Source: a virus. From it: 22,925 nt of DNA. The position numbers were made by a program, and so were the translations under genes. How positions within the stretch are numbered: the stretch's first letter is position 1; every line of letters starts with the position of its first letter. Location of the stretch: positions 1-22,925 of the IMG/VR virus record IMGVR_UViG_3300042340_000088; one strand, given 5' to 3'. Below, one piece after another: positions 6,940-22,925 of this stretch. The notes beneath the pieces were generated by a model that did not search any database, was not told the origin of the DNA, and saw nothing but the letters and a program-made list of their open reading frames with translations.

Positions 6940-7025
6940 AGTTTACTCACATTTCAGTTTGCATTCAATGAGTTACGTCTCCGTAGCCCTCTATTTTAAA
7001 AATTAACAATTATTTATTATTAATC

Positions 7026-7047
7026 TTAGGGTTAATTTAACGGGGTT
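7026..7047 (-). promoter_or_regulatory. 22-nt conserved motif, copy A (candidate phage promoter or operator)
   Basis: On the minus strand the site reads AACCCC then GTTAAATTAACCCTAA, identical over 22 bases to copies at 7182-7203 and 11623-11644. It contains the 11-base palindrome GTTAA-A-TTAAC. The part AATTAACCCT equals the first ten bases of the phage T3 RNA polymerase promoter consensus, but the T3 initiation part is absent. It lies about 90 bases before the terminase small subunit start. A promoter for a phage polymerase or a binding site for a phage regulator are both possible. Confidence 0.6.
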
Positions 7048-7070
7048 TTCTATATGTCTCAGCGCTCTGC

Positions 7071-7102
7071 CCTTTAGGAAAAAGTCAGGGATCCCCTAAA
7101 GG
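7071..7102. repeat. Inverted repeat CCTTTAGG / CCTAAAGG
   Basis: Two perfectly complementary 8-base arms are separated by 16 bases that include the palindrome GGGATCCC. The element lies between copies A and B of the 22-nt motif. With no T-run directly after it on the minus strand it is not a standard terminator. It may be an mRNA leader hairpin for late transcripts started at copy B, or a protein-binding site. Confidence 0.5.
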
Positions 7103-7181
7103 ATATATTTATTAGATTAATTATTATTGATTAATAACTAAGGATTAACAACTAATGGATTATAATTCAGGGGGAGCGGCT

Positions 7182-7203
7182 TTAGGGTTAATTTAACGGG
7201 GTT
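7182..7203 (-). promoter_or_regulatory. 22-nt conserved motif, copy B (candidate phage promoter or operator)
   Basis: Exactly identical to copy A over 22 bases while the flanks differ, which indicates a selected site and not a recent duplication of a larger segment. It sits about 30 bases beyond the T-run of the terminator that ends the small-gene operon, the classic place for a promoter restarting transcription. Confidence 0.6.
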
Positions 7204-7232
7204 AGTTTAAAGGAATAAGTATAAAACAAAAG

Positions 7233-7281
7233 AAAAAAAAAAAATAAGGGGCCTCCTACCACCCCGAAGGGCAGTAGGAGG
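7233..7281 (-). terminator. Strong intrinsic terminator after the small-gene operon
   Basis: On the minus strand the arm CCTCCTACTGCCC pairs with GGGTGGTAGGAGG around a UUCG tetraloop (7252-7281). That is 13 pairs, including two G-U pairs. After a short CCCCTTA spacer comes a run of 12 T (7233-7244). It starts ten bases past the stop of the 7291-7647 gene. Confidence 0.9.
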
Positions 7282-7290
7282 GGGTAGGGA

Positions 7291-7647
7291 TCAGAATATC
7301 TCTTTAATTAAATCATGACTTGTTTCTTCGTGTTTATAATATCTCCCATCCTCATAGAACCAAGAACCATTACACGCTTGACCAAGTCTAGCAGCCCAAT
7401 AATTACCATAATTATCGTAGTATTTAACAATATACCGATCACCGTCTGCGTTACTATATATGTGATTGATTTCTAGTTTCATAGGCATCACTAGAGACTC
7501 ATTAGCAGATGTACATACACCATTCCCAAAATACCAATCAAGCTCTTCATTGAATAAATCAACACCGACAAATTTATCATCTTTTTCATATATTATATAA
7601 ACACGATGATTGTCCCCATTTCTATACTCTTTGCCAACTTCAATCAT
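7291..7647 (-). CDS. Family A small protein with two modules
   Basis: 118 residues made of two copies of a roughly 55-60 residue module that recurs in this window: (I/L)-x-V-G-K-x-Y at the start, a glycine turn, hydrophobic strands, a W/Y-containing strand near the end and a closing D-L-I-K-E. Module 1 starts MIEVGKEYRNGDNHRVY; module 2 starts LEINHIYSNADGDRY and ends SHDLIKEIF. Such proteins are frequent in accessory regions of T7-like phages and have no known function as far as I know. The ATG overlaps the upstream stop (TAATG). It is the last gene before the strong terminator and is paired with the family B gene just upstream. Confidence 0.7.
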   Translation of the reverse strand: MIEVGKEYRNGDNHRVYIIYEKDDKFVGVDLFNEELDWYFGNGVCTSANESLVMPMKLEINHIYSNADGDRYIVKYYDNYGNYWAARLGQACNGSWFYEDGRYYKHEETSHDLIKEIF

Positions 7648-7841
7648 TATCTTAACCCCATTGCAATTTCAATTTTAGCCAGATCTTCTTCAGTTAACAA
7701 ATAGCTTGACCAAGCATCAAGTTCATCATATGAAATCTTTACAGAGAAATTCTTTCCAGATTTTGAAATACATACTTCTGAGATTCTATCAAGGTTAATC
7801 AATACATTAGTCCCTTGATCTGTGACTTTTATAAAGTTCAT
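7647..7841 (-). CDS. Family B small protein (FlbD-like pattern)
   Basis: 64 residues: MNFIKVTDQGTNVLINLDRI, then two beta strands and a C-terminal helix (LTEEDLAKIEIAMG). The pattern F-I-K-V-T, V-x-I-N-x-D-x-I and a final helix recurs in three other genes here (8185, 8959 and 9150). It resembles the layout of the small FlbD/YlzI family of bacteria, which I note as a similarity of pattern only. AAAGGAG eight to nine bases before the ATG is a strong ribosome binding site. Function unknown. It alternates with family A genes on both sides. Confidence 0.65.
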   Translation of the reverse strand: MNFIKVTDQGTNVLINLDRISEVCISKSGKNFSVKISYDELDAWSSYLLTEEDLAKIEIAMGLR

Positions 7842-8197
7842 TTTATTTTCTCCTTTAAAGGGTAGTGACTAGCGCATTCTGCTTTACCATCTATAGCATA
7901 GAGTGCAGTTGTGTGCCCGATGGTGTTAGGGTACATAATACCGATAACAGGATACCTTCCGCTAGGGCTAATACTAGCGATAAACACGTGGTTATTCCAG
8001 TGATCTAACCATGTATCCCCTGCCTTAAGATCTAGTGGTTGTTCTAAGACTAAATCAACATATCCATGACCTTCTTTACTGTACCATTCAAGATCACCAC
8101 TAAACATGTTCTCGCCTACAAACTGATCGTGTTCTTTAAATAATATCCGAATACGTTGACCATTAAGATTCTTATACTCTTTGTCTACTTCAAGCAT
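7838..8197 (-). CDS. Family A small protein with two modules
   Basis: 119 residues. Module 1 opens MLEVDKEYKNLNGQRIRILF and resembles the first half of the 7291-7647 protein closely, including K-x-D-x-F-V-G and an L-(D/E)-W-Y core. Module 2 begins LKAGDTWLDHWNNHVF, has YPVIGIMYP typical of the family's central strand (Y-P-V-(I/L)-G), and closes with YPLKEKIK. The ribosome binding site AAAAGGAG lies eight bases before the ATG. It is followed, with a four-base overlap, by a family B gene, exactly as the other A/B pairs. No catalytic residues are apparent and no function can be assigned. Confidence 0.7.
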   Translation of the reverse strand: MLEVDKEYKNLNGQRIRILFKEHDQFVGENMFSGDLEWYSKEGHGYVDLVLEQPLDLKAGDTWLDHWNNHVFIASISPSGRYPVIGIMYPNTIGHTTALYAIDGKAECASHYPLKEKIK

Positions 8198-8403
8198 CTT
8201 GTAAGCTCCTTTTTTAATTTAATTGCTTCATCATCATCCACTGTAAATACTTCAAAAGGAGTATTTGGATTATCCTTATGATAACAACGTACTTGAATAT
8301 TGTTGTTATCTAGTATTCTAGTTATAATTGATGAAACACCGTCAAGATTTATATACACTGTAGTATAGACATCTTTACAATTTGTTGTAAGCGTTATGAA
8401 CAT
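8185..8403 (-). CDS. Family B small protein
   Basis: 72 residues from the ATG at 8403, chosen because GGAG stands six bases upstream. Longer in-frame readings start at TTG and overlap the upstream gene. MFITLTTNCKDVYTTVYINLD followed by a V-S-S-I strand gives the family B pattern with an insertion of a few residues. The C-terminus is a helix with D-D-E-A-I-K-L-K-K-E-L. It overlaps the following family A gene by 13 bases. Unknown function. Its place between two family A genes supports the idea of a repeated A/B unit. Confidence 0.6.
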   Translation of the reverse strand: MFITLTTNCKDVYTTVYINLDGVSSIITRILDNNNIQVRCYHKDNPNTPFEVFTVDDDEAIKLKKELTRCLK

Positions 8404-8404
8404 A

Positions 8405-8572
8405 TCATTCTCCACAGGTCGCTTCATTTTGTTCAATGAAGTGATTCAGAATCTCTTGAGTGACAACAATAGTTGTCATACCTGGAATCGGTTGATTTGA
8501 GTACACAGCGCTGTCATAGATAACATATGGTGTACCGACTAAACTAATAAAATATAATGCACAGTAACTCAT
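8405..8572 (-). CDS. Small unknown protein
   Basis: 55 residues. The ATG overlaps the stop of the upstream family A gene (ATGA), and the stop TGA lies just before the next ATG at 8403, so the reading frame fills the gap exactly. The N-terminal half (YCALYFISLVGTPYVIYD) is hydrophobic with aromatic residues; the C-terminal part is helical and acidic (EILNHFIEQNEATCGE). No family is recognised. It is too short to judge alone, but the stop/start geometry on both ends is the same as that of its neighbours and supports real translation. Confidence 0.55.
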   Translation of the reverse strand: MSYCALYFISLVGTPYVIYDSAVYSNQPIPGMTTIVVTQEILNHFIEQNEATCGE

Positions 8573-8775
8573 TTCACTTCCTCAATCAGGTCATTATCAT
8601 CAAAATCGCCATTAATAAATTTTCCATCTAATGTAAATGTCGCGGGATCTAATATCCAGTCTTCGTATGTTGCAGCAATAACAGGATACGTAATATCTTT
8701 ATCACCGATGTACACGACTTCCCAAATCTGTCCGTCTATGCTTTTGTACTTTTTGCCCACTTCTAATTTTAACAT
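8569..8775 (-). CDS. Family A small protein, single module
   Basis: 68 residues, one complete module and the clearest view of it: LKLEVGKKYKSIDGQIWEVV, then TYPVIAATY, then a strand with FTLDGKF, ending D-N-D-L-I-E-E-V-K. GGAG seven bases before the ATG is a good ribosome binding site and fixes this start, although an upstream reading frame overlaps the first 74 bases. The C-terminal D-L-I-E-E-V matches D-L-I-K-E-V of the 290-residue protein at 13049. A small beta-rich fold is expected. No function is known. Confidence 0.7.
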   Translation of the reverse strand: MLKLEVGKKYKSIDGQIWEVVYIGDKDITYPVIAATYEDWILDPATFTLDGKFINGDFDDNDLIEEVK

Positions 8776-8968
8776 TGTGTTTCTCCACTTTTGCTATGAA
8801 TGTATGAATATGATGTCCACCAAGAATATCTCCAACCCATGCCATGACAATAGGTTTCTTAGAATACATCATATTGTGTTTGTACTCAAACTTATCACCA
8901 TCGATGTCAACGCCCGTGAAGGCGCTGACGTTTGACGATAATATTAAAAATAATATTATTAGAGGCAT
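8702..8968 (-). CDS. Small secreted or membrane-anchored protein with signal peptide
   Basis: 88 residues from the ATG at 8968, which overlaps the upstream stop. The in-frame GTG three codons earlier is less likely. The N-terminus MPLIILFLILSSNVSA is a short hydrophobic segment ending in an A-x-A-like signal peptidase site (V-S-A, then F). The next part, FTGVDIDGDKFEYKHN, resembles a family A opening turn. The C-terminal third overlaps the following gene by 74 bases, which is longer than usual for this genome, so the real product could be shorter in effect or the frame could be decayed. If exported, it would act in the host envelope, for example in superinfection control; this is speculative. 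Confidence 0.45.
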   Translation of the reverse strand: MPLIILFLILSSNVSAFTGVDIDGDKFEYKHNMMYSKKPIVMAWVGDILGGHHIHTFIAKVEKHNVKIRSGQKVQKHRRTDLGSRVHR

Positions 8969-9156
8969 TCTTCCCACTTCTTGAATTGTTCAATTACCTT
9001 CATTGAAGTTTCTCTTGAAACAATATACCGTCTAGTGTGTTCATTTGGCCCTTTATACTTTAGCGCAATTATACGCTTATCAACAGCAATATTACGAACA
9101 CTATTAGTATCAACACAAACGAGACTGCCTCTTTTTGTCATAAACTTAATTAACAT
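8959..9156 (-). CDS. Family B small protein
   Basis: 65 residues from the ATG at 9156, chosen because GGAG lies six bases before it. The in-frame ATG at 9168 has no binding site. MLIKFMTKRGSLVCVDTNSV gives the family B opening (I-K-F-x-T, then a V-D-x-N-x-V turn). Strands with YIVSRET and a final helix (MKVIEQFKKWEECL) complete the pattern. It directly follows another family B gene, with a seven-base overlap, so here two B copies are adjacent. Basic overall. Function unknown. Confidence 0.65.
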   Translation of the reverse strand: MLIKFMTKRGSLVCVDTNSVRNIAVDKRIIALKYKGPNEHTRRYIVSRETSMKVIEQFKKWEECL

Positions 9157-9356
9157 AATTTGCTCCATTGGAATCTTAATGCACGAGCTATTTCATGCCA
9201 AGTTTCATATGTGACAGTGTGGCATTTATTGTGAGTAGGATATGAAACGCCTACATAGTACTTCTTATCATCTGAATAAAGTGCTACACTCTCTGTTGCA
9301 TTGAAGTTGATTGTAATTAACTCATCTTCTGTACTCTTAACTATTATAATGTTCAT
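9150..9356 (-). CDS. Family B small protein
   Basis: 68 residues: MNIIIVKSTEDELITINFNA opens with the family pattern (I-I-I-V, then I-T-I-N-x-N). The middle strand YYVGVSYPTHN and a C-terminal helix (YETWHEIARALRFQW) follow. The ATG overlaps the stop of the upstream HNH-like gene (ATGA). It is the most upstream member of the B series and, with the 8959 gene, forms a direct tandem. No function can be named. Confidence 0.65.
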   Translation of the reverse strand: MNIIIVKSTEDELITINFNATESVALYSDDKKYYVGVSYPTHNKCHTVTYETWHEIARALRFQWSKLC

Positions 9357-9814
9357 GCGTCCATCCCAATAAATTTCATACCAAGTTCACTTCGTTGAGC
9401 ATTTCTATACTCTAGTGCTTCTGTCAATGTTCTACATCTTTTTGAAATAACTTTACCTTTGTGATTCATAGCCACATCATACACAACTCTTTCAGCTGAT
9501 ACTGTTGGTCTAATATTTCTATAAACACTTTTAACGCTTGTGCCATCTTTCAGATATAGATTTTCAATTCTAGTGTTCTGTTTATTATTGTCAACATAGC
9601 CCAGATAATCCAATTGCGTAAGTTCATCGCCATGATGATATGTCCACACAAGGCGTGCCGCAACATACATCCTATGGTTTACCTGAATGATTCGATTTCT
9701 ATCAGGATCGAACCTTACAGCGTTGTGGCTTTGCTTAAATTTTGAATCTCTCCAATATAAGCAACCTGTTATCGCGTCATAATCGAATAATCTTCTAACT
9801 TCTTTTTGATTCAT
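9353..9814 (-). CDS. HNH-fold protein lacking the catalytic residues, with AP2-like C-terminus
   Basis: 153 residues. The skeleton is that of phage homing HNH endonucleases: LFDYDAITGCLYWRD near the start, then AARLVWTYHHGDE where active enzymes have A-H-R-L-x-W, then LGYVDNNKQNTRIENLYLKD where active enzymes have I-D-H-x-N-G-x-x-x-D-N-R-I-x-N-L. The first His is Ala, the central His is Tyr and the DNR Asn is Thr. Residues about 105-150 (VVYDVAMNHKGKVISKRCRTLTEALEYRNAQ) resemble the AP2-type DNA-binding domain that often follows HNH. So DNA binding may remain while cleavage is probably lost. AAAGG lies about eight bases before the ATG. It overlaps a second protein of the same type. Confidence 0.65.
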   Translation of the reverse strand: MNQKEVRRLFDYDAITGCLYWRDSKFKQSHNAVRFDPDRNRIIQVNHRMYVAARLVWTYHHGDELTQLDYLGYVDNNKQNTRIENLYLKDGTSVKSVYRNIRPTVSAERVVYDVAMNHKGKVISKRCRTLTEALEYRNAQRSELGMKFIGMDA

Positions 9815-10139
9815 TTGAAATACCTTTTAGTAATGTTGAAAATTTTCCGACAGCTGGTAGCTCCCGGTTTGCAATGTATAAGTTACAAATCTTTATGTTG
9901 AATGAATTTCCATCTTTATACTGCAGTCTTTTATCAGGCCATTCACCATAATATAATCGCCATGCAAGACGCCCCATTGTTGTTTGCATTCTCCCTTGAC
10001 GTGAATTAATTAAATATTGTCCACCTCTTTGGCTATTTGCAGTAAAGCCTAAAATCCAACCAAAGATAGACACAACTTTACCTTCTATAGGATCATATTT
10101 GTAATAGCCACTCTCTATCCACTTATCAAATTCTTTCAT
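9795..10139 (-). CDS. Second HNH-fold protein lacking the catalytic residues
   Basis: 114 residues. GYYKYDPIEGKVVSIFGW matches the opening of HNH homing enzymes. MGRLAWRLYYGEWPDKRLQY replaces the usual A-H-R-L-A-W segment and has Gly for the first His. LQYKDGNSFNIKICNL aligns with I-D-H-I-N-G-x-x-x-D-N-R-I-x-N-L but has Tyr in place of the central His and Ile for Asn. The hydrophobic and Gly residues of the fold are kept. It is followed by the second degenerate copy with a 20-base overlap. An inactive nuclease fold used for DNA binding is my inference. An undiscovered alternative active site cannot be excluded. Confidence 0.6.
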   Translation of the reverse strand: MKEFDKWIESGYYKYDPIEGKVVSIFGWILGFTANSQRGGQYLINSRQGRMQTTMGRLAWRLYYGEWPDKRLQYKDGNSFNIKICNLYIANRELPAVGKFSTLLKGISNESKRS

Positions 10140-10144
10140 AACTG

Positions 10145-10819
10145 TTAACCATTGTTAATAAAACCTAATACATCACGACCTAAGATAATTAAATCGTTTT
10201 CACTAATATTGTCTGCTAAAATCAATATTGAGCCATTCTTAATTTCTACTAAGAATTCATAATCATTTCTAGCAAATTTAATTGTTCTACCTTCCGAACT
10301 TATAACACTAAATGCGCCTGATGTTACGTCAGGTTTGAGGCTAATGCCTGATTGAGTGGAAATAATTTCCTTTAAGCGTTTAAATGCTTCGTCACTTGCT
10401 AAAGATACTTTAACTTCCATCCCATCAATTTTACAAGCAGGATATAAAAGTTTTATTAATTCCAATTCAGCATTAGTAGAGCATTTTAATGTTTTATACT
10501 CAAGTGTAACAATTGCATTTTTAGGAAAAGTCTGTAAGGCTTTATCTAAAGCCAATCCTAAAAATTCATTGATTAAACCTCTTTTTCTATATGCAGCGTA
10601 CGGAATATTTGCATACATTTGAGTCTCTTCTGGTAATTCAAATACTACACGCATTTGAGCTTCCCTTGAAGTATTTAAAAGATCTTCTTCAGAAACTAGA
10701 GACACACCTATTAGCGCTAATTCATTGCATTTTTCAACTAAAGTTTTACCTTCATTACGAGCAATAGTTATAACCTGGTCACGAACTTTATGTGTTGTGT
10801 ATATGGTAATTGTTTTCAT
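10145..10819 (-). CDS. Unknown protein with possible ribbon-helix-helix segments
   Basis: 224 residues. Two segments have the strand-helix-helix look of ribbon-helix-helix DNA-binding domains: residues 1-42 (MKTITIYTTHKVRDQVITIA, then a second helix) and about 55-95 (MRVVFELPEETQMYANIPYA, then RGLINEFLGLALDKAL). The C-terminal 130 residues form a mixed alpha/beta part with no recognised family. It is the first gene after the terminator at 10844-10873 and has AAAGGA eight bases before the ATG. If the reading is right, it could be a phage transcription regulator, for instance acting on the 22-nt sites. This is untested inference. Confidence 0.6.
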   Translation of the reverse strand: MKTITIYTTHKVRDQVITIARNEGKTLVEKCNELALIGVSLVSEEDLLNTSREAQMRVVFELPEETQMYANIPYAAYRKRGLINEFLGLALDKALQTFPKNAIVTLEYKTLKCSTNAELELIKLLYPACKIDGMEVKVSLASDEAFKRLKEIISTQSGISLKPDVTSGAFSVISSEGRTIKFARNDYEFLVEIKNGSILILADNISENDLIILGRDVLGFINNG

Positions 10820-10843
10820 TTGGCATTTCCTTTGAATTTGATT

Positions 10844-10873
10844 AAAAACCCCTCAACCATTAAGGTCAAGGGG
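10844..10873 (-). terminator. Intrinsic terminator after the 204-residue gene
   Basis: On the minus strand CCCCTTGACC pairs with GGTTGAGGGG around a TTAAT loop (ten pairs, two of them G-U), followed immediately by TTTTT. It begins 14 bases after the stop of the 10887-11501 gene and closes that transcription unit. Confidence 0.9.
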
Positions 10874-10886
10874 TGTTTGTTAAAAA

Positions 10887-11501
10887 TTACTTACCAGCTT
10901 TTGCTTCACGTTTTAAACGATTAGCTTCACGTTTTGCAGCCAATTCAGCTACAGCTTCTGGGCCTTTAGACTCAGCTTCTGCATCTTCTTCAGCACGTTT
11001 CTTAGCTTGGTATTCTGCTAAACCAGCAGCAGCTTTGGGTGACACTTCGCGTTTTTCAACGCCAGCGCTATAAGCTTCCAAGATAGCAGCAGAGTTACTA
11101 ACAACATAATCAGCAAGTTCAGGATTACCTGATGCTTGTAAGATTTCTGTTTTAGCGGCTTCTACTTTTTCTTCAGCAGTTAAACGTTTTACAGCAGGCC
11201 ATCTGAACGAATCTAAGACAGCTTTTGCATTGTCAAATAAGAAACCTGAAGTGATTTCCGCAAGTGCTTTTTCCAATTTGTTATAATCAGATTTAGTCAC
11301 ACGACGAATAGTACCACTTTCGAAAGCAGATTCAACTGTGTCTTGGTTATCAACTAACCATTCTGCAACGTCTGTTTGATTGCTTACAGCTGTTAACATA
11401 GCTGCTAAAATCAATGGACGTCTAACAAAGTTTAATGCTTCTGCTTTAGTTGCAAATGTTTGACCGTTTACTACGAATGCTTGTTGGATTTGGACTGACA
11501 T
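10887..11501 (-). CDS. 204-residue protein in its own transcription unit, function unknown
   Basis: Helical protein. The N-terminus (MSVQIQQAFVVNGQTFATKA) has a short beta hairpin followed by a long helix, and the middle is mixed. The last 50 residues are a charged Ala/Glu/Lys/Arg helix (EYQAKKRAEEDAEAESK, AAKREANRLKREAKAGK). Codons are less AT-biased than in the neighbours. It has AAGGA nine bases before the ATG, a leader of roughly 120 bases with a 22-nt motif and an inverted repeat, and a strong terminator directly behind. This single-gene arrangement suggests a protein needed in large amount, such as a DNA-binding or scaffold-like protein. I do not recognise the family. Confidence 0.75.
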   Translation of the reverse strand: MSVQIQQAFVVNGQTFATKAEALNFVRRPLILAAMLTAVSNQTDVAEWLVDNQDTVESAFESGTIRRVTKSDYNKLEKALAEITSGFLFDNAKAVLDSFRWPAVKRLTAEEKVEAAKTEILQASGNPELADYVVSNSAAILEAYSAGVEKREVSPKAAAGLAEYQAKKRAEEDAEAESKGPEAVAELAAKREANRLKREAKAGK

Positions 11502-11514
11502 GATGAATTCCTTA

Positions 11515-11541
11515 AGATAAATTATTAATTAATATTTATCT
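11515..11541. repeat. AT-rich inverted repeat in the leader of the 204-residue gene
   Basis: AGATAAAT and ATTTATCT form perfect 8-base arms around an 11-base AT loop, just upstream of the ribosome binding site of the 10887-11501 gene. On the mRNA this gives a weak hairpin that could protect the 5' region or influence ribosome access. A dimeric protein-binding site is equally possible. Confidence 0.5.
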
Positions 11542-11622
11542 GTGCGGTCCCACTTAGTGCGCTTTTGCCCAATGCTCTTACAGTTCTTAATACGAGATGA
11601 GAATCTAACTTCTTATTTGAAA

Positions 11623-11644
11623 TTAGGGTTAATTTAACGGGGTT
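11623..11644 (-). promoter_or_regulatory. 22-nt conserved motif, copy C (candidate phage promoter or operator)
   Basis: Identical over 22 bases to copies A and B, 4.4 kb away, while the flanking bases differ. It stands 120 bases upstream of the 204-residue gene, so again at the head of a transcription unit, downstream of the preceding gene's stop and in the same orientation as A and B. Confidence 0.6.
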
Positions 11645-11676
11645 GGCACACTCGCATTACACCCAAAACCCGTTAA
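11634..11676. repeat. Inverted repeat using half of copy C
   Basis: TTAACGGGGTT (11634-11644, part of copy C) is mirrored by AAACCCGTTAA at 11666-11676, with one extra base in one arm, across 21 bases. On the minus-strand transcript this could form a hairpin just past the stop of the 11690-12016 gene. It lacks a T-run, so it is not a typical terminator. Confidence 0.45.
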
Positions 11677-11689
11677 TGGCCTGCTTTTG

Positions 11690-12016
11690 CTACGCAGACG
11701 GCACGAGGAACCTGTCCCATGCCTGCAGGGATGCCTCAGACGCGGTTGCCAGCTCTGCCCCAGTTTCTGGCCCAAATTTGGGCACCCTGATGCCAGCGGG
11801 TAGCACGGGCTGTGAGTCACCAACTTCCACAAGATTGAGGTCATTGTACGGATCATTCTTATTAACTAATCCCTCCATAGTCCATGAAGTATGTTCCCAA
11901 TCACCCTCATCTAAATACAACCCAAGTACAGGATAGCCATAACGCTCTTCAATAATGCCCAAAAGCACAACTTCGCGGCCATCTTGTGTCTCATATGCTT
12001 TATCTAAATCAATCAT
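11690..12016 (-). CDS. Family A protein with a GC-rich C-terminal extension
   Basis: 108 residues. Residues 1-65 are one family A module (MIDLDKAYETQDGREVVLLG, YPVLGLYL, a W-containing strand, closing DLNLVEV). Residues 66-108 (SQPVLPAGIRVPKFGPETG, then a helix ending DRFLVPSA) have no counterpart in the other members. The DNA for this tail is strikingly GC-rich: 40 of 60 bases at 11701-11760 are G or C. The ATG overlaps the upstream stop (ATGA). The extension looks like a segment of other origin fused to a phage module, or a read-through into acquired DNA. Function unknown. Confidence 0.65.
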   Translation of the reverse strand: MIDLDKAYETQDGREVVLLGIIEERYGYPVLGLYLDEGDWEHTSWTMEGLVNKNDPYNDLNLVEVGDSQPVLPAGIRVPKFGPETGAELATASEASLQAWDRFLVPSA

Positions 12017-12234
12017 TTTCTTATTACCCCTTGACTTGGATCACTTAATTCAACAAGCTCATAGATGTGCTTGCCTTCGATTACAACACCACCAATGTTT
12101 GTTTGGTGGACTTGACGATAGCCTTCGTACTTAATATTAACTACAACTACCGATACAGCTATTGCTATCATCATTCCGATAATAGCAGATATTAAATCAA
12201 ATTTGTGTAACATGTTTTTAACCTCTTGGTTCAT
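12013..12234 (-). CDS. Small membrane protein with one N-terminal membrane segment
   Basis: 73 residues if started at 12234, where ATG overlaps the previous stop. An ATG at 12213 has the better ribosome binding site (AGAGG eight bases upstream) and would give 66 residues. Residues about 13-33 (LISAIIGMMIAIAVSVVVV) form one membrane segment, followed by a polar domain of about 40 residues with G-G-V-V-I-E-G-K-H-I-Y-E-L. The topology suggests an inner-membrane protein with a short soluble tail. It lies between two family A genes. Possible roles include superinfection exclusion or membrane tethering, but nothing in the sequence decides. Confidence 0.65.
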   Translation of the reverse strand: MNQEVKNMLHKFDLISAIIGMMIAIAVSVVVVNIKYEGYRQVHQTNIGGVVIEGKHIYELVELSDPSQGVIRK

Positions 12235-12440
12235 CTTTCTTCCAAATCTAAATCATTATCTACAATGCTTTCATCGCATCGCCCATCTAACATCCATCTT
12301 TCATCAATCCATTCTGCATAATCGGTGTCATAATAACGCCCTAACACTGGATAATCAGTTTTAACTGATGTGATGATTTGATGTACTTCCGCCTTGAAGC
12401 CACATCGCGTTTTGTACTTCTTTTGAATCTCTATTTTCAT
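12231..12440 (-). CDS. Family A small protein, single module
   Basis: 69 residues: MKIEIQKKYKTRCGFKAEVH opens the module and is close to the first residues of the 290-residue protein at 13049 (MKIKLNKKYRTRHGKVVRI). YPVLGRYYD is the central strand, WMLDGRCDE the third strand, and V-D-N-D-L-D-L-E-E-R the end. The stop overlaps the ATG of the membrane protein gene. Similarity to the 13049 gene, only 600 bases away, suggests local duplication. No function is known. Confidence 0.7.
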   Translation of the reverse strand: MKIEIQKKYKTRCGFKAEVHQIITSVKTDYPVLGRYYDTDYAEWIDERWMLDGRCDESIVDNDLDLEER

Positions 12441-12443
12441 AAA

Positions 12444-12593
12444 TTACCCCGGTGGATTGCATGAGTAGCACATGCAGTTTCTGTGATAGCCGTGTGGGCC
12501 AAGAATTCTATCACCATCTTCTTCCCAGTTTTCTTCTTGAGGTTCTGGATCATAATCCCACTCTTGTTCTTCAGTTAATTTACCTAATATCAT
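12444..12593 (-). CDS. Small acidic protein with cysteine knuckle
   Basis: 49 residues that exactly fill the gap between two genes. The ATG overlaps the end of the 12580-12918 gene by 14 bases, and the stop lies three bases before the next ATG. The first 30 residues are acidic with Trp and Pro (EEQEWDYDPEPQEENWEEDG). The C-terminus has GPHGYHRNCMCYSCNPPG, with H-x-x-C-x-C-x-x-C spacing that could bind a zinc ion. Too short for a full zinc finger domain of a known class. A protein-protein contact or adaptor role is possible. Confidence 0.5.
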   Translation of the reverse strand: MILGKLTEEQEWDYDPEPQEENWEEDGDRILGPHGYHRNCMCYSCNPPG

Positions 12594-12918
12594 TTTTAAC
12601 CCTCTCACAAATTTTACGGAATATAGGCATGTAGATCAGCATCTTAGTGTCTTCAACCTCTCTTACAATTTTCTTAGGAATATTTATCCAGATATTGCTC
12701 AATAAAACTGAATAGCATGTATCCCTTTCAATAACCTTTTCAAATAATACCCAATCATCATAATAATTATGATTGGGCATAAAGTGCTTCGGTGGTCTTG
12801 AGGGCTTATGATACATTTTTGCAAATTCAACACCTTTTAAATTAGGTGTATATTCATAATAATTGTCATAATCTCCATCCATGGGGTAAAATTCTTCCTC
12901 GCCACAGTAATCCAACAT
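12580..12918 (-). CDS. Unknown protein with acidic, tyrosine-rich N-terminus
   Basis: 112 residues. The first 35 residues are acidic and Tyr-rich (GDYDNYYEYTP); the middle has Pro, His and Asn (PSRPPKHFMPNHNYYDDW). The C-terminal half has hydrophobic strands (CYSVLLSNIWINIP) and a basic helix (FRKICERVKNDIR). The ATG overlaps the stop of the superacidic gene upstream (TAATG), indicating coupled translation. I recognise no family. The split between a negative N-terminus and a positive C-terminus is notable but not diagnostic. Confidence 0.6.
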   Translation of the reverse strand: MLDYCGEEEFYPMDGDYDNYYEYTPNLKGVEFAKMYHKPSRPPKHFMPNHNYYDDWVLFEKVIERDTCYSVLLSNIWINIPKKIVREVEDTKMLIYMPIFRKICERVKNDIR

Positions 12919-13046
12919 TATTCATCCTCCTCTTCCCATTCATCATCAAGTTCTTCTTCATCATCGTCGATCCAAGTCTCGTCCTCATCTTCAGCTGCTA
13001 CTTTACCCCAATCTACTTCTTCGCCATAATTTTCATATAGATCCAT
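12918..13046 (-). CDS. Superacidic 42-residue protein
   Basis: 24 of 42 residues are Asp or Glu against one Lys, with three Trp spaced through the chain (VDWGK, TWIDD, DEWEEEDE). The ATG at 13046 has AGAGGTG about six bases upstream, and the stop TAA overlaps the next ATG. Such a charge is typical of DNA-mimic proteins that phages use against host DNA-binding enzymes (T7 Ocr is a much larger example), but a 42-residue chain could also be a disordered chaperone-like or charge-partner peptide. Existence is well supported by the start and stop context. Function is inferred only from composition. Confidence 0.6.
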   Translation of the reverse strand: MDLYENYGEEVDWGKVAAEDEDETWIDDDEEELDDEWEEEDE

Positions 13047-13048
13047 TG

Positions 13049-13921
13049 TTACACCTCTTTAATTAAGTCTTCATAACTATAAGTACCACACTTATTGTAA
13101 CAACCCTTACGTGTATATATACGTAAGGAATCATCATTCGCGCCCATTGCAACAACATGTTCATTATCTCTAATATGTATTATTTCATACTTATCACCAC
13201 GCTCGTTAACATACATACTGCCAACTTCTAAACAGAGTCCATTGAATTCCCCCACAAGATTCATTTCTGCGATAGGAAATTGCTGTCCCTTGAGCAATCC
13301 TGTTAATTTAGTTGCAAGCCCTGGTTCAACTCTATACACATGACCTTTGGCACCAATATAGAGCTTCTTATCTTCTGGAGTAAAGACATCAACTATATCA
13401 AAATCAGACTGTTCATTTTCAAATATTTCACCATATTTACTTACACTAAACTTGGAGCCATTAGTTGTACTATATTCATATCTATAGAACCCTACGTCAC
13501 TGGTTGTTTTTGTTATACCAGCCATTTGACCGCTACGTGTTACGTACATGCCACCTACTTTAATTTTAGGCGGTCTCAGCAAATCACACTCAGATTTTGT
13601 ATCAATATACATTTTACCATCTATTGTGTAGTCATAGCCATTATCACCACTAAATACATATCTACCATAATGCTCTATATCTGTTAATGTTACAGGATTT
13701 CCCTCTCGTGTAAAATACTGACGACCCGCTTTAAACTTAAAATTACGCACACGTTCTACTAAATCCCAGTCTGAGTCTTCATAATCAAATCTCTTACCAT
13801 TCTTTGTTACTGTGTAATCAGCATTTGTACCAAATGGATATACAGGACTCTCTGTAGTTTCCATGATTCTAACAACTTTACCGTGACGTGTTCTATACTT
13901 CTTGTTCAGTTTTATTTTCAT
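13049..13921 (-). CDS. Multi-module family A protein (290 residues)
   Basis: The chain is built from repeated family A modules at about residues 3-56, 61-116, 119-178 and 230-290, with a shorter degenerate one near 185-225. Each begins with a strand of the type (K/L)-x-(A/V)-G-x-x-Y-x-T-R-x-G (FKAGRQYFTREG, IKVGGMYVTRSG, LEVGSMYVNERG) and ends with a D-L-(V/L/I) motif (SDWDLVE, SECDLLR, SDFDIVD, YEDLIKEV). Single and double modules occur as separate genes elsewhere in the window. The start has AAGGA eight bases upstream, inside the small coiled-coil gene. A multivalent binding protein is conceivable. I know of no function for the module. Confidence 0.75.
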   Translation of the reverse strand: MKIKLNKKYRTRHGKVVRIMETTESPVYPFGTNADYTVTKNGKRFDYEDSDWDLVERVRNFKFKAGRQYFTREGNPVTLTDIEHYGRYVFSGDNGYDYTIDGKMYIDTKSECDLLRPPKIKVGGMYVTRSGQMAGITKTTSDVGFYRYEYSTTNGSKFSVSKYGEIFENEQSDFDIVDVFTPEDKKLYIGAKGHVYRVEPGLATKLTGLLKGQQFPIAEMNLVGEFNGLCLEVGSMYVNERGDKYEIIHIRDNEHVVAMGANDDSLRIYTRKGCYNKCGTYSYEDLIKEV

Positions 13922-14066
13922 TTTCGATTTCCTTCTGGATTTTAAATAGATTCTTTAACTGTCTGTTTCTCATCAAAAGCTCTTGTTCTAGCAACTGAAT
14001 AGCATGCTTCTTTTCAATTATTAGAATTTCCACCTGCCTTTCATAAATGTAAAGTGGCGTCATCAT
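13893..14066 (-). CDS. Small coiled-coil protein overlapping both neighbours
   Basis: 57 residues. The start is the ATG at 14066, exactly six bases after a perfect AGGAGG (14073-14078), the best ribosome binding site of the window. The first 26 bases lie within the ligase 3' end and the last 29 within the start of the 290-residue gene. After MMTPLYIYERQ the chain is one long charged helix with Leu and Ile at heptad positions (VEILIIEKKHAIQLLEQELL, LKNLFKIQKEIENENK), so it should form a coiled coil. It has no signal or membrane segment. Probably an oligomeric partner of a larger phage or host protein. No family is recognised. Confidence 0.65.
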   Translation of the reverse strand: MMTPLYIYERQVEILIIEKKHAIQLLEQELLMRNRQLKNLFKIQKEIENENKTEQEV

Positions 14067-15411
14067 ACATACCCTCCTGAATGTTCAACAAATGTTCTAG
14101 AGTATCTGCTTCATCTTTATCGTAGCGTCTCTCAATGAACTTAGGCTCAAATAATGAGTAGTTACCCTTCTCATCGCAAATCACCTCTGAGTATGTTACA
14201 CCTATAATTGCGTATAACCAGTCTCCACTGTTTTTACAAATTTCTGCTGTTAATGCATCTGTCAAATTGCCCACACCAACGCTTAAATCGCCATCTTCTG
14301 TTACACACAATAATGAGCCAAATGTATCTTTATTAGCACCAGTGCCCGGTATAAAATCAATTACTCTTAACTCACACTCAAACTCTTTCTTAAACTTAAC
14401 ACCACTAGTTGTAGTGCCATCTCTCCATAGCATATCTTGTTTCTTAAGCATACTGCCTTCTTTACCTTGTCTAACAAGCTCTATGAAATGCGTTTCTGCT
14501 TCTTGAAGATTATTAACAATCCGTGTATCAATTATTCGTGTCCATTTACATGCAATACCTAGATTAACATCAGATAAGTGTAGCAAATCAAAGTGTAAGT
14601 TATTCAATCTAGAGTAATAAGGCTCATCATCTGCCCCGTTAGCAATACCCGACAACTTTACTCGATCCCAAACCATGAATACAGGTTTTTCTTCTGGCTT
14701 AAAGCTGCCGCCTAAATTAACCCTGCGTATGATACCGTTACTAGTCTTACGCTCTAGGATCTCCCCGTTCACTTCTATTAATAATTCACCATGATACTGA
14801 TATCCATCTTTCATATGAGGACTTAATTCAAATATCAGATCATAGTACTCATAGACATTCATTGGCTGGTAATTACGTGATAACATTGAAATATCACCAG
14901 CACTCTTGGTGATGTTTACAAACAAGCCATTAGCCTTTTCTTGGGAGAATGCAGGAAATGGAAACTTATCCATCTTAACATTCTTAGGAAGGCTAAACCG
15001 CATATATTTCTTAATAGGTATGAATTCAGATTGCTTTGCCTTGTTAATAGATTTCACATCAAAGCCAGCATCTAAACTTTTATTAAGAATTTGACAGAAT
15101 AAAACTTGAGATTTAGATGTTAGTGTTTGCAAGTGAGCGTTAATGTTTGCCTTTGCATGATTACCTGTTAGCCTTCTCTTAGCTAAGTTATCTAACAAAG
15201 TAAATGTAGAATCATTAAACACATCCCGACCATTTTTGAAAAGCTCTTCTACATTTCTAATACCATACATGATGAATGGGTCATATGCATGCCATATAAT
15301 ATCTTCAAACATCTCATCTTCAAGACCATATGCTAACATTATAATCTTTTCATTTTTAGACGGCTGTTGCGCTATTGCTTGTAATAAATCGTATACGTCA
15401 TCACTTGTCAT
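14041..15411 (-). CDS. ATP-dependent DNA ligase
   Basis: 456 residues. It seals nicks in DNA through a lysine-AMP intermediate. The adenylation motif I is EKANGLFV (K159, A, N161, G162), with Asn where most enzymes have Asp (K-x-D-G). Motif III is YHGELLIE (E209), motif IIIa PVFMVWDRV (243-251), motif IV EGSMLKK (E318 to K323) and motif V VKFKKEFE (K339, K341). An N-terminal helical domain of about 140 residues precedes them, as in T4-like ligases. GAGG eight bases before the ATG lies inside the preceding 21-codon frame, whose stop overlaps the ATG (ATGA), so expression is probably coupled. It probably joins Okazaki fragments in the phage replisome. Confidence 0.93.
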   Translation of the reverse strand: MTSDDVYDLLQAIAQQPSKNEKIIMLAYGLEDEMFEDIIWHAYDPFIMYGIRNVEELFKNGRDVFNDSTFTLLDNLAKRRLTGNHAKANINAHLQTLTSKSQVLFCQILNKSLDAGFDVKSINKAKQSEFIPIKKYMRFSLPKNVKMDKFPFPAFSQEKANGLFVNITKSAGDISMLSRNYQPMNVYEYYDLIFELSPHMKDGYQYHGELLIEVNGEILERKTSNGIIRRVNLGGSFKPEEKPVFMVWDRVKLSGIANGADDEPYYSRLNNLHFDLLHLSDVNLGIACKWTRIIDTRIVNNLQEAETHFIELVRQGKEGSMLKKQDMLWRDGTTTSGVKFKKEFECELRVIDFIPGTGANKDTFGSLLCVTEDGDLSVGVGNLTDALTAEICKNSGDWLYAIIGVTYSEVICDEKGNYSLFEPKFIERRYDKDEADTLEHLLNIQEGMYDDATLHL

Positions 15412-15473
15412 TTCTTAATCCTCAATAAGAGTTTAATGATATCCCACGCCAGTTCAGCTAATTGTTTGTACAT
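15408..15473 (-). CDS. 21-residue leader peptide coupled to the ligase
   Basis: A frame of 21 codons starts at an ATG with GGAG six bases upstream and ends in a TGA that overlaps the ligase ATG. The peptide (MYKQLAELAWDII, then KLLLRIKK) would form an amphipathic helix with a basic end. It is the first frame after the terminator at 15488-15509. Likely roles are delivering ribosomes to the ligase start or acting as a small membrane-active peptide. The geometry supports translation, but so short a frame cannot be proven from sequence. Confidence 0.5.
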   Translation of the reverse strand: MYKQLAELAWDIIKLLLRIKK

Positions 15474-15487
15474 AAGATTCTCCGATT

Positions 15488-15509
15488 AAAAGGGGAACCG
15501 AAGTTCCCC
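15488..15509 (-). terminator. Intrinsic terminator with UUCG loop
   Basis: On the minus strand GGGGAAC-TTCG-GTTCCCC forms a seven-pair stem with an extra-stable c(UUCG)g loop, followed by TTTT. It begins seven bases after the stop of the 15517-15921 gene and ends the replication gene block. The short T-run may allow partial read-through into the ligase unit, since no copy of the 22-nt motif follows it. Confidence 0.85.
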
Positions 15510-15516
15510 AGTAAGA

Positions 15517-15921
15517 TTATTTTAAATAGTTTCTAAACATGCCAGCATTGTCAAACACCATAATATATGTTTCAGCTTTTTCATAATACAAGTCAATATA
15601 TCTATCAAGACCCGGAATATTACTTGTTCGGCCATGTGATTTTAGTTCAGGTCTACGGCCTGGGTAGGGACTTGTAATTACAACAATACGGCCATCTTTA
15701 CATCTAAATCTATCTAAATGATCTGCATAATATTCCCATTTTTGATGTAATATAGCAGCTTGGCGTCCAGTTAAAGGCATATGTCTTTGCAAATCAAATT
15801 CTTTTGCAAATTTATTCATATTGTCACAAAGAAAGAAATCATCACTTCGCGAATTACGATCCCATTTTGTATCTTTAAAAATTTTAGGATAATCTGTTTT
15901 TCTGCTTGGTCCAATTGTCAT
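15517..15921 (-). CDS. Unknown basic protein downstream of the reductase genes
   Basis: 134 residues from the ATG at 15921, which has GGA seven bases upstream. An in-frame GTG four codons earlier overlaps the previous gene. The chain is rich in Arg, Lys, Asp and aromatic residues: FKDTKWDRNSRSDDFFLCDN, a helical part (GRQAAILHQKWEYYADHLDRF), a strand RIVVITSPYPGRRPELKSHG, and a C-terminal helix. The GRRPELKSHGRTS segment could bind nucleic acid. No family is recognised. It is the last gene of the replication block and probably co-translated with the 63-residue gene before it. Confidence 0.65.
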   Translation of the reverse strand: MTIGPSRKTDYPKIFKDTKWDRNSRSDDFFLCDNMNKFAKEFDLQRHMPLTGRQAAILHQKWEYYADHLDRFRCKDGRIVVITSPYPGRRPELKSHGRTSNIPGLDRYIDLYYEKAETYIMVFDNAGMFRNYLK

Positions 15922-21666: not shown

Positions 21667-21955
21667 CTAAAACTCCCATTTCCTGAGACAATTTCATTCT
21701 TAATAATGTGCGATCAATCTTGTCTCTAATGTCAGGTACTCTTTCACAATTCAATCTAATATTACATTCTGATGAAAGAAGTATTAAGATAGCTTGTACA
21801 TCAGAAAGTTCTGATTTAAGCTTTTCTTTGTTAGTCTTTTCATACAGCTCGTATTTATGATCAAGTGTGAATCTTAAACATTTAGACGCTTCCTGTGCAG
21901 CTTCTGATAGTTCTTCCATTAAACATACAAGTAAATATTGCTCTTTATTCATCAT
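21647..21955 (-). CDS. MazG-like nucleotide pyrophosphohydrolase
   Basis: 102 residues, one compact all-alpha domain. The metal-binding pattern is ME-ELSEAAQEASK (E15, E18) and, after 30 residues, SELSDVQAIL (E49, D52), the E-x-x-E plus E-x-x-D signature of MazG-type NTP pyrophosphatases. Members hydrolyse NTPs or dNTPs to monophosphates. In phages they are thought to adjust nucleotide pools or alarmone levels. Here the neighbours are DNA polymerase, exonuclease and reductase, which fits pool control. The start has GAGAG upstream. A second in-frame ATG follows directly and cannot be told apart. Confidence 0.82.
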   Translation of the reverse strand: MMNKEQYLLVCLMEELSEAAQEASKCLRFTLDHKYELYEKTNKEKLKSELSDVQAILILLSSECNIRLNCERVPDIRDKIDRTLLRMKLSQEMGVLDADSID

Positions 21956-22538
21956 TTTCTCTCATAAATTTAACTATTACAATTCTGCCGTTTCTTTGAT
22001 TGATGCCTTCAGATAACCATGGTTGTCGACCGTGATATAGCTTTGCATCATAGATCAACAATGTATTTGCCTTTGCGTTAAAGAATTCATCTATTGACCA
22101 TTGTCCATCATCTTCGTCAAATATATAGTGCTCTTTAGCTTTAGCATAATTGCCATACACAGGGTGACTGAAGAAAGCTGTACCTGTTATATCACTACTG
22201 TCTAAGTAAAAGAGAGCGGCTACAGTTGGTGTTTGGCCAAATATGTCTTGATCCGCATGTACTCTAAATTCTGTGTCATGTTTGCTAGTATTCAAACGAA
22301 CAAATGATATGATATCCTTTAAATTCTTTCCTAGTGTTTCATTAATAATTTTGTTAATATTATCATTAATATCTCTAGGCATGTCAGCATAATAAATAAA
22401 TGTGCCATTACCCTTAGGCATTCGTTTATAATTTGATGCCCTGCAGTATTGTCTTAATCGCAGAAAATCCTGCATTGATAATACATTATCAATACTAGTG
22501 AATCTCGTACCAATCGTTACCGATCTTTCCACTTCCAT
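21945..22538 (-). CDS. Fe(II)/2-oxoglutarate-dependent oxygenase
   Basis: 197 residues from the ATG at 22538, chosen for GGAG seven bases upstream. It overlaps the polymerase end by 44 bases. The double-stranded beta-helix iron site is H94-x-D96 in FRVHADQ and H169 in LYHGRQPW. R182 or R185 (NQRNGRIVIVKF) would bind 2-oxoglutarate. Related phage proteins hydroxylate proteins or bases, but the substrate cannot be read from the sequence. Its place between polymerase and MazG-like genes makes a base or nucleotide modification thinkable. It overlaps the next gene by 11 bases. Confidence 0.82.
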   Translation of the reverse strand: MEVERSVTIGTRFTSIDNVLSMQDFLRLRQYCRASNYKRMPKGNGTFIYYADMPRDINDNINKIINETLGKNLKDIISFVRLNTSKHDTEFRVHADQDIFGQTPTVAALFYLDSSDITGTAFFSHPVYGNYAKAKEHYIFDEDDGQWSIDEFFNAKANTLLIYDAKLYHGRQPWLSEGINQRNGRIVIVKFMRENDE

Positions 22539-22925
22539 CCATAATCTCCACACCAAATAGTTTAGGGCCGTCTGCAAACGCTTGTTTACCTATCTCAGCT
22601 GCTTGTTCAGCAAACTCTTCAGGCACCATAAAATCAATTTCATCATGCATCATAATCAAGGGTTGGTACGGAATTCCTGCAGATTCGAGTCGCTCCATTG
22701 CAAGCATACATGCTGCTCCGCACGTAATTTTCTCTGCTGATTGCAGTAGATAGACAAGAAGCTTATGGAAGCTGTCAACATACACACGAGTACCAGCCAA
22801 GCTAGGGATATAACCATCTCCCTTTTTCTTTGTGTTTCCATATATTTTCTCCAACTTTTCACTTAAGTCTTTAAACCCTGGAACAGCTTTAATAAAGCCT
22901 GATTTCAATTTCTTACCTTTAACAT
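22495..22925 (-). CDS. DNA polymerase, family A (T7 gp5-like), C-terminal part
   Basis: The frame is open to the right edge of the window, so only the last 142 residues are present and the start lies outside. Motif C of family A polymerases is LIMMHDEIDFMV, with the catalytic Asp-Glu after His. The preceding SFHKLLVYLLQSAEKITCGA matches the T7 polymerase segment S-P-H-A-A-L-N-T-L-L-Q-S-A. The end GSGKIGNDWYEIH parallels the T7 end T-E-G-K-M-G-P-N-W-A-I-C-H. This fixes the T7-like type. The polymerase and exonuclease domains upstream are not visible here. Confidence 0.92.
   Translation of the reverse strand, partial: VKGKKLKSGFIKAVPGFKDLSEKLEKIYGNTKKKGDGYIPSLAGTRVYVDSFHKLLVYLLQSAEKITCGAACMLAMERLESAGIPYQPLIMMHDEIDFMVPEEFAEQAAEIGKQAFADGPKLFGVEIMDGSGKIGNDWYEIH

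Follow-up and report, generated by a model that had tools for sequence, protein, structure and literature searches.

Four copies of a predicted SH3/Tudor-like module in one phage protein, a candidate multivalent binding factor

What would a phage gain from a protein in which the same small module is repeated along the chain, next to genes that encode this module singly or in pairs? The question is raised by P0001, a protein encoded in a window (the whole stretch of DNA analysed) of 22,925 nucleotides, positions 1 to 22,925 of the IMG/VR record IMGVR_UViG_3300042340_000088. The minus-strand genes of this 22.9-kb virus record comprise those for terminase, DNA ligase, ribonucleotide reductase, primase/helicase, exonuclease and HNH proteins. 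The reading favored here, with a probability of roughly one half, is that P0001 is a non-enzymatic accessory factor, produced alongside the replication proteins, which binds proteins multivalently through SH3/Tudor-like barrels.

The coordinates and the length of 290 residues proposed for P0001 by an earlier reading of the bare sequence (hereafter the sequence-only reading) are correct: the ATG is found at 13919-13921 and the stop codon at 13049-13051, on the minus strand. The DNA ligase gene and a 57-aa gene are located upstream. The gene and its parts are given below, with hhalign probabilities calculated against a module profile lacking the P0001-family rows.

13049..13921, minus strand: P0001, 290-aa protein with four modules predicted to be SH3-like (ORF and module profile)
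13930..13936, minus strand: AGAAGGA, likely ribosome-binding site of P0001, 8 nt 5' of the ATG (by eye)
13748..13921, minus strand: module a1, residues 1-58 (Smith-Waterman; hhalign 95.7 %)
13571..13747, minus strand: module a2, residues 59-117 (Smith-Waterman; hhalign 94.8 %)
13382..13570, minus strand: module a3, residues 118-180 (Smith-Waterman; hhalign 75.0 %)
13238..13381, minus strand: segment a4, residues 181-228, unsupported as a module (hhalign 0.8 %)
13052..13237, minus strand: module a5, residues 229-290, closest to gene 8569 (hhalign 97.1 %; weak tree support, 81/80, in a poorly resolved module tree with 4 of 24 inner branches starred)

Four to five copies of the module had been proposed in this chain, with internal repeat detection as a check. 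The internal similarity is significant, as Smith-Waterman alignments gave z scores against shuffles of 9.6 for a1/a2, 13.2 for a1/a3 and 7.9 for a2/a3, with module edges that differ by one residue from those listed. A module HMM was built from 32 of the 48 rows of alignment A1, leaving out the 16 rows that came from P0001-type proteins or from the three-module gene found in a relative. It scored 63.2 bits on P0001, to be compared with no more than 7.3 for 200 shuffled sequences, and returned domain E-values (for a database of one sequence) of 6.3e-7, 3.3e-7, 2.9e-4 (a3, partial) and 5.4e-12. Within P0001, hhalign returned 94.7 % for a1/a2, 92.3 % for a1/a3, 43.1 % for a2/a3 and at most 7.7 % for the pairs with a5. 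The latter is tied to the family via gene 8569 (z 8.9), its direct z to a1-a3 being 2.5 at most. These z, HMM and hhalign values lead to a count of four modules, the last of them recognised only via the wider family. The fifth copy, at residues 181-228, was rejected on its hhalign probability of 0.8 %, and an equivalent of a4 likewise went undetected in the 301/298-aa frame in six of six related records, each of which gave four matches. Segment a4 is either a linker or a very decayed module. No DNA-level repeat is left within P0001, and the module duplications are therefore old rather than recent. A likeness of P0001 to the designed Pizza beta-propeller (whole-sequence E 1.5e-10) was rejected, because it sums weak repeats (in the top match each repeat had E >100) and because a single gene of fewer than 70 residues cannot form a propeller.

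Pairwise and profile searches located the module in five other genes of the window.

12231..12440, minus strand: gene e, single module, 69 aa (pairwise and profile searches)
11690..12016, minus strand: gene f, single module and tail of about 42 residues, 108 aa (pairwise and profile searches)
8569..8775, minus strand: gene d, single module, 68 aa, the structure-predicted chain (pairwise and profile searches; pLDDT 92.6)
7838..8197, minus strand: gene c, double module, 119 aa (pairwise and profile searches)
7291..7647, minus strand: gene b, double module, 118 aa (pairwise and profile searches)

The single genes 8569 and 12231 and the double genes 7291 and 7838, already noticed by eye, were recovered by the profile searches; in 7838 the second copy had an iE of 8.7 in the initial round and was recognised only after iteration. 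The window contains 11 modules in six genes (P0001 with four, 7291 and 7838 with a pair apiece, and 8569, 12231 and 11690 with a single copy), a total close to the earlier estimate of roughly twelve and including gene 11690-12016, which had been missing from that list. Small minus-strand genes at 7647-7841, 8185-8436, 8959-9168 and 9150-9356 sit between or beside the module genes and have the look of a possible second family; a profile made from these four genes matched relatives in related contigs. The alternation of the first two with 7291, 7838 and 8569 could point to the duplication of a unit of two genes. Two HNH endonuclease genes (9353-9814 and 9795-10139, minus strand; PHROG 99) adjoin each other in the middle of the module cluster; of six related loci compared, four contained matches to both.

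The family follows the pattern VGKxYxTRxG ... YP ... W/YTxxG ... DLxEE. Across a set of 56 rows, Gly15 and Gly51 never vary, and Tyr10 (93%), Arg13 (88%) and Asp62 (88%) are highly conserved, Tyr10, Arg13 and Gly15 being fixed or limited by the collecting pattern itself. Arg13 and Asp62 occur together in 44 of the 56 rows. As far as can be judged from these residues, the module has no obvious catalytic set.

A fold prediction was obtained for gene 8569 with the 48 modules as alignment, giving a five-stranded model with a mean pLDDT of 92.6. The nearest PDB folds were PsaE, NdhS, the NusG C-terminal domain and the UvrD/PcrA Tudor domain, with modest scores: Foldseek E was 0.056 or weaker and VIA Z reached 6.1, Z values of this order possibly reflecting, according to the tool's note, only a shared arrangement. 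The prediction of one module and its comparison with known folds, as suggested by the sequence-only reading, thus point to a five-stranded barrel with SH3-like neighbors, in other words to a small beta-barrel of the SH3/Tudor-like type as the predicted fold of the module. The full-length P0001 model, made with ten close sequences as input, reached a pLDDT of 40.9, too low to be informative; the same fold may be extended from the paralogue 8569 to the four modules of P0001.

Two BFVD entries matched the 8569 model at E <=0.001, both uncharacterised phage proteins. The best, A0A873WTU9 (Foldseek E 4.2e-4), was equated by phage name and length with gp062 of Burkholderia phage Mica (QPB08674.1), which carries one module by HMM (E 3.9e-11) and differs from P0001 by its single module, another C-terminal part and its annotation as a hypothetical protein. 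The BFVD-listed phages Salva and Mano were not retained, the HMM finding no module in the sequence examined (45.7 kb for Salva, 22.5 kb for Mano); a module-like stretch seen by eye in Mano_058 is unsupported by the HMM. At a broader scale, the available part of the Viral AlphaFold Database report (PMC12487901) ranks SH3/Tudor-like folds first, fourth and fifth by size among the structural clusters specific to bacterial viruses, with about 1.3% of the proteins in bacterial structural clusters. The fold class is therefore already known and abundant in phages, these clusters being likened to the module by predicted fold class only. The four-module array is a feature of P0001 that this part of PMC12487901 does not mention, and the P0001 sequence family is rated as a new member within a known phage fold class.

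The statement that this module has no assigned function was borne out, as no significant match to a function-named family was obtained in Pfam, PHROGs or PADLOC. The best PHROG match (22518, E 2.6e-4) is a family without function, and PADLOC, a defence library that is little informative on counter-defence, returned nothing for P0001, the five other module proteins and four neighbors. For DUF4222 (PF13973), P0001 scored 9.7 bits for a cut-off of 27, and two of the 48 modules resembled this family weakly, the better of them at E 0.0071. No description of the module or of phage SH3-like arrays was found in the openly accessible literature searched. Two characterised phage proteins were compared. 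According to PMC11984713, Nip of phage phi3T binds a host protein and differs from P0001 by an HU-like C-terminal domain. No homology between Nip (phi3T_120) and the module was detected: its HMM score of 4.3 was reached by 8 of 200 shuffles, and its score of 0.7 with a wider module profile by 74 of 200. T4 MotB, likened to the module by description, is reported in PMC7827196 to possess a KOW/SH3-like N-terminal domain, and differs from it by an OB-fold C-terminal domain and reported DNA binding.

The example of MotB, whose predicted KOW domain accompanies DNA binding (PMC7827196), leads to another interpretation, in which the barrels, as in KOW/NusG or MotB proteins, would bind phage or host DNA or RNA, or RNA polymerase, and steer transcription. 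The presence of the NusG C-terminal domain and other KOW-type barrels among the PDB folds of the 8569 model agrees with it, as does the contact of 2 of 48 modules with Pfam KOW (best E 0.0097). Pfam KOW (PF00467) is however missing, even at E 1, from the matches of P0001 and of the five other module proteins of the window, and the net charge is negative in 8 of the 11 window modules (f -11, d -8, b1 -6, e -5, c1 -5, b2 -3, a5 -3, a3 -1). This charge argument for protein binding is weaker for P0001 itself, which is neutral overall rather than acidic, with modules at +3 (a1), 0 (a2), -1 (a3) and -3 (a5), a1 being basic (pI 9.3), which speaks for the nucleic-acid reading. Nucleic-acid binding is on the whole judged unlikely.

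The shared name of the broad fold class also evokes SH3b-type proteins, and P0001 could in principle bind the cell wall or a surface in the manner of an endolysin. This is considered extremely improbable, as no Pfam SH3b-type match was obtained for P0001 up to E 1, and as 20 neighboring proteins searched against PHROGs gave 9 named functions, none of them lysis, and 11 without function. A 210-aa gene at 21945-22577 (minus strand), although situated among replication genes, matched the PHROG "minor coat protein" (E 2.1e-12); its product may resemble a 2OG-Fe(II) oxygenase.

In the surroundings of P0001, two terminator-like hairpins flank a stretch containing the ligase gene, P0001, 12231 and 11690. 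A hairpin search counted seven such structures in 7000-15700, for a shuffle mean of 3.7, among which are the following.

15492..15509, minus strand: terminator-like hairpin 5' of the ligase-P0001-e-f unit (hairpin search)
10848..10874, minus strand: terminator-like hairpin ending the ligase-P0001-e-f unit (hairpin search)
7252..7281, minus strand: terminator-like hairpin directly 3' of gene 7291 (hairpin search)

P0001 was found in 11 IMG/VR loci, once identical and ten times at 75-94% identity. Whole-gene dN/dS, derived from the printed dN and dS values of 12 pairs, ranged from 0.12 to 0.28 and therefore indicates purifying selection, the alignment comprising ten sequences, namely P0001 and nine full-length relatives 75-94% identical. 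Ratios for single modules rest on few changes, and dN exceeds dS for a3 and a4 in the pair formed by the window and L010. Module number was counted in 12 whole records, which supplied rows of A1 and may be fragments; 11 of them matched, with 11, 12, 12, 12, 12 and 11 modules in the six P0001-type records, 7 in each of three records of a sister lineage, and 3, 0 and 2 in the three others. The sister lineage, compared with the window through L108, retains the ligase (52% identity), the large subunit of ribonucleotide reductase (72%) and the terminase (82%), and neither a P0001 match nor a module was found in L108 from the ligase to the next shared gene. In this lineage the place of 11690, a gene with one module, is taken by a three-module gene, and in L006 two copies of 11690 stand side by side. 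The arrays therefore vary in length, and in more than one gene. In L024, the other locus of the sister lineage that was compared, P0001 itself matches the first module of the three-module gene (31% identity along 80 residues). This gene may therefore be in part a relocated relative of P0001 and not only an enlarged 11690.

Outside this group, two degenerate-pattern scans of viral contigs, with patterns fixing or limiting eight residues, selected 32 loci, 28 of which contain the module at an HMM E of 0.001; 4 of the 28 had supplied profile rows and three (L035, L095 and L101) are weak, with E from 3e-5 to 8e-4. The module occurs in phage contigs alone, in tandem or fused to other regions. A similar scan of a genome collection selected 41 loci, of which a single one (L068, a betaproteobacterial MAG) contained a true module, and none was detected in 369 genomes sampled from the class to which an Enterobacter genome belongs, a result that depends on the outside control G013, the one positive among 6 genomes and itself the donor of a profile row. 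When P0001 or one 63-aa module was searched by tblastn in named phages, nothing was matched, and three other queries gave weak matches only; that of EBPR siphovirus 2 (E 0.04) was confirmed by the HMM, and that of Pectobacterium phage MA13 was not.

Three of the 16 module proteins scanned with Pfam and PHROGs possess a part resembling nucleotide metabolism, the other 13 having no clearly functional part. In L030 the module is fused to dGTP_diPhyd_N (E 3.2e-9). The gp25 protein of EBPR siphovirus 2 (AEI71041.1) shares with P0001 one N-terminal module (E 1.3e-5) and differs in that the remainder is the dATP/dGTP diphosphohydrolase N-terminal domain dGTP_diPhyd_N (E 2.9e-36). The fusion in L028 matches an unnamed PHROG (4.7e-14), PHROG 4897 "kinase" (3.2e-6) and, more weakly, "nucleotide kinase" PHROGs (0.0025 and 0.029) and DUF3310 (14.3 bits, below the cut-off of 24). 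As described in PMC12884076, the DUF5664/dGTP_diPhyd_N protein of Arthrobacter phage Wayne was assayed as a hydrolase of dATP, dGTP and dUTP; dGTP_diPhyd_N is thus likely to be the catalytic part of the fusions, and the module an add-on. The gp25 gene (L079:4001-4675) overlaps that of ThyX by 4 bases, and the two form a possible nucleotide-pool operon.

Such fusions, with dATP/dGTP diphosphohydrolase or kinase-like parts and in one case next to ThyX, could suggest that the module serves oligomerisation or scaffolding, the array bringing ligase, ribonucleotide reductase or similar enzymes together in a single complex. The location of P0001 and DNA ligase in one terminator-bracketed stretch, with ribonucleotide reductase genes nearby, is in line with this proposal, which is rather doubtful in view of the low share of nucleotide-related fusions (the 3 of 16 above) and of the sister lineage, which keeps ligase and ribonucleotide reductase without P0001.

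Multivalent protein binding by P0001 builds on what the tools recorded, namely the repeats, the spread in phage contigs, the changes in array length and the purifying selection. A module joined to unrelated proteins and to itself fits a protein-binding docking barrel, and multivalent binding agrees with the predicted barrel fold, the changes in array length and the absence of a catalytic set. P0001 would then consist of four small barrels joined by short linkers, together with one 48-residue segment, and would lack enzyme activity. Each barrel would present a variable surface to a partner that is presumably a protein rather than a nucleic acid, and the stringing of barrels would confer a higher avidity, in agreement with the idea of the sequence-only reading, or join several partners. 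These partners would probably be host proteins, including targets of defence or takeover, and counter-defence or host takeover are plausible uses of P0001. A bolder and quite unlikely generalisation would make the module a promiscuous, largely virus-specific binding domain, and its arrays sponges for counter-defence or takeover whose number is tuned by duplication. If true, the module would be the phage counterpart of the eukaryotic SH3 domain, added to nucleotide-pool enzymes and arrayed to capture several host proteins. Without a partner, P0001 remains an ordinary phage accessory gene. The module family provides a sequence handle on part of the large and functionally dark group of phage small barrels, and its forms with one, two, three or four modules, along with the enzyme-fused relatives, constitute a good place for learning the ligands of these barrels.

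A last observation concerns five of the loci outside the window, L068, L088, L094, L099 and L101, in which the module is followed by a stretch that ends, as seen by eye, in a YRIKPEP-like motif, preceded in four of the five by TWGEMTD. This stretch looks like another small phage domain, common to several proteins.
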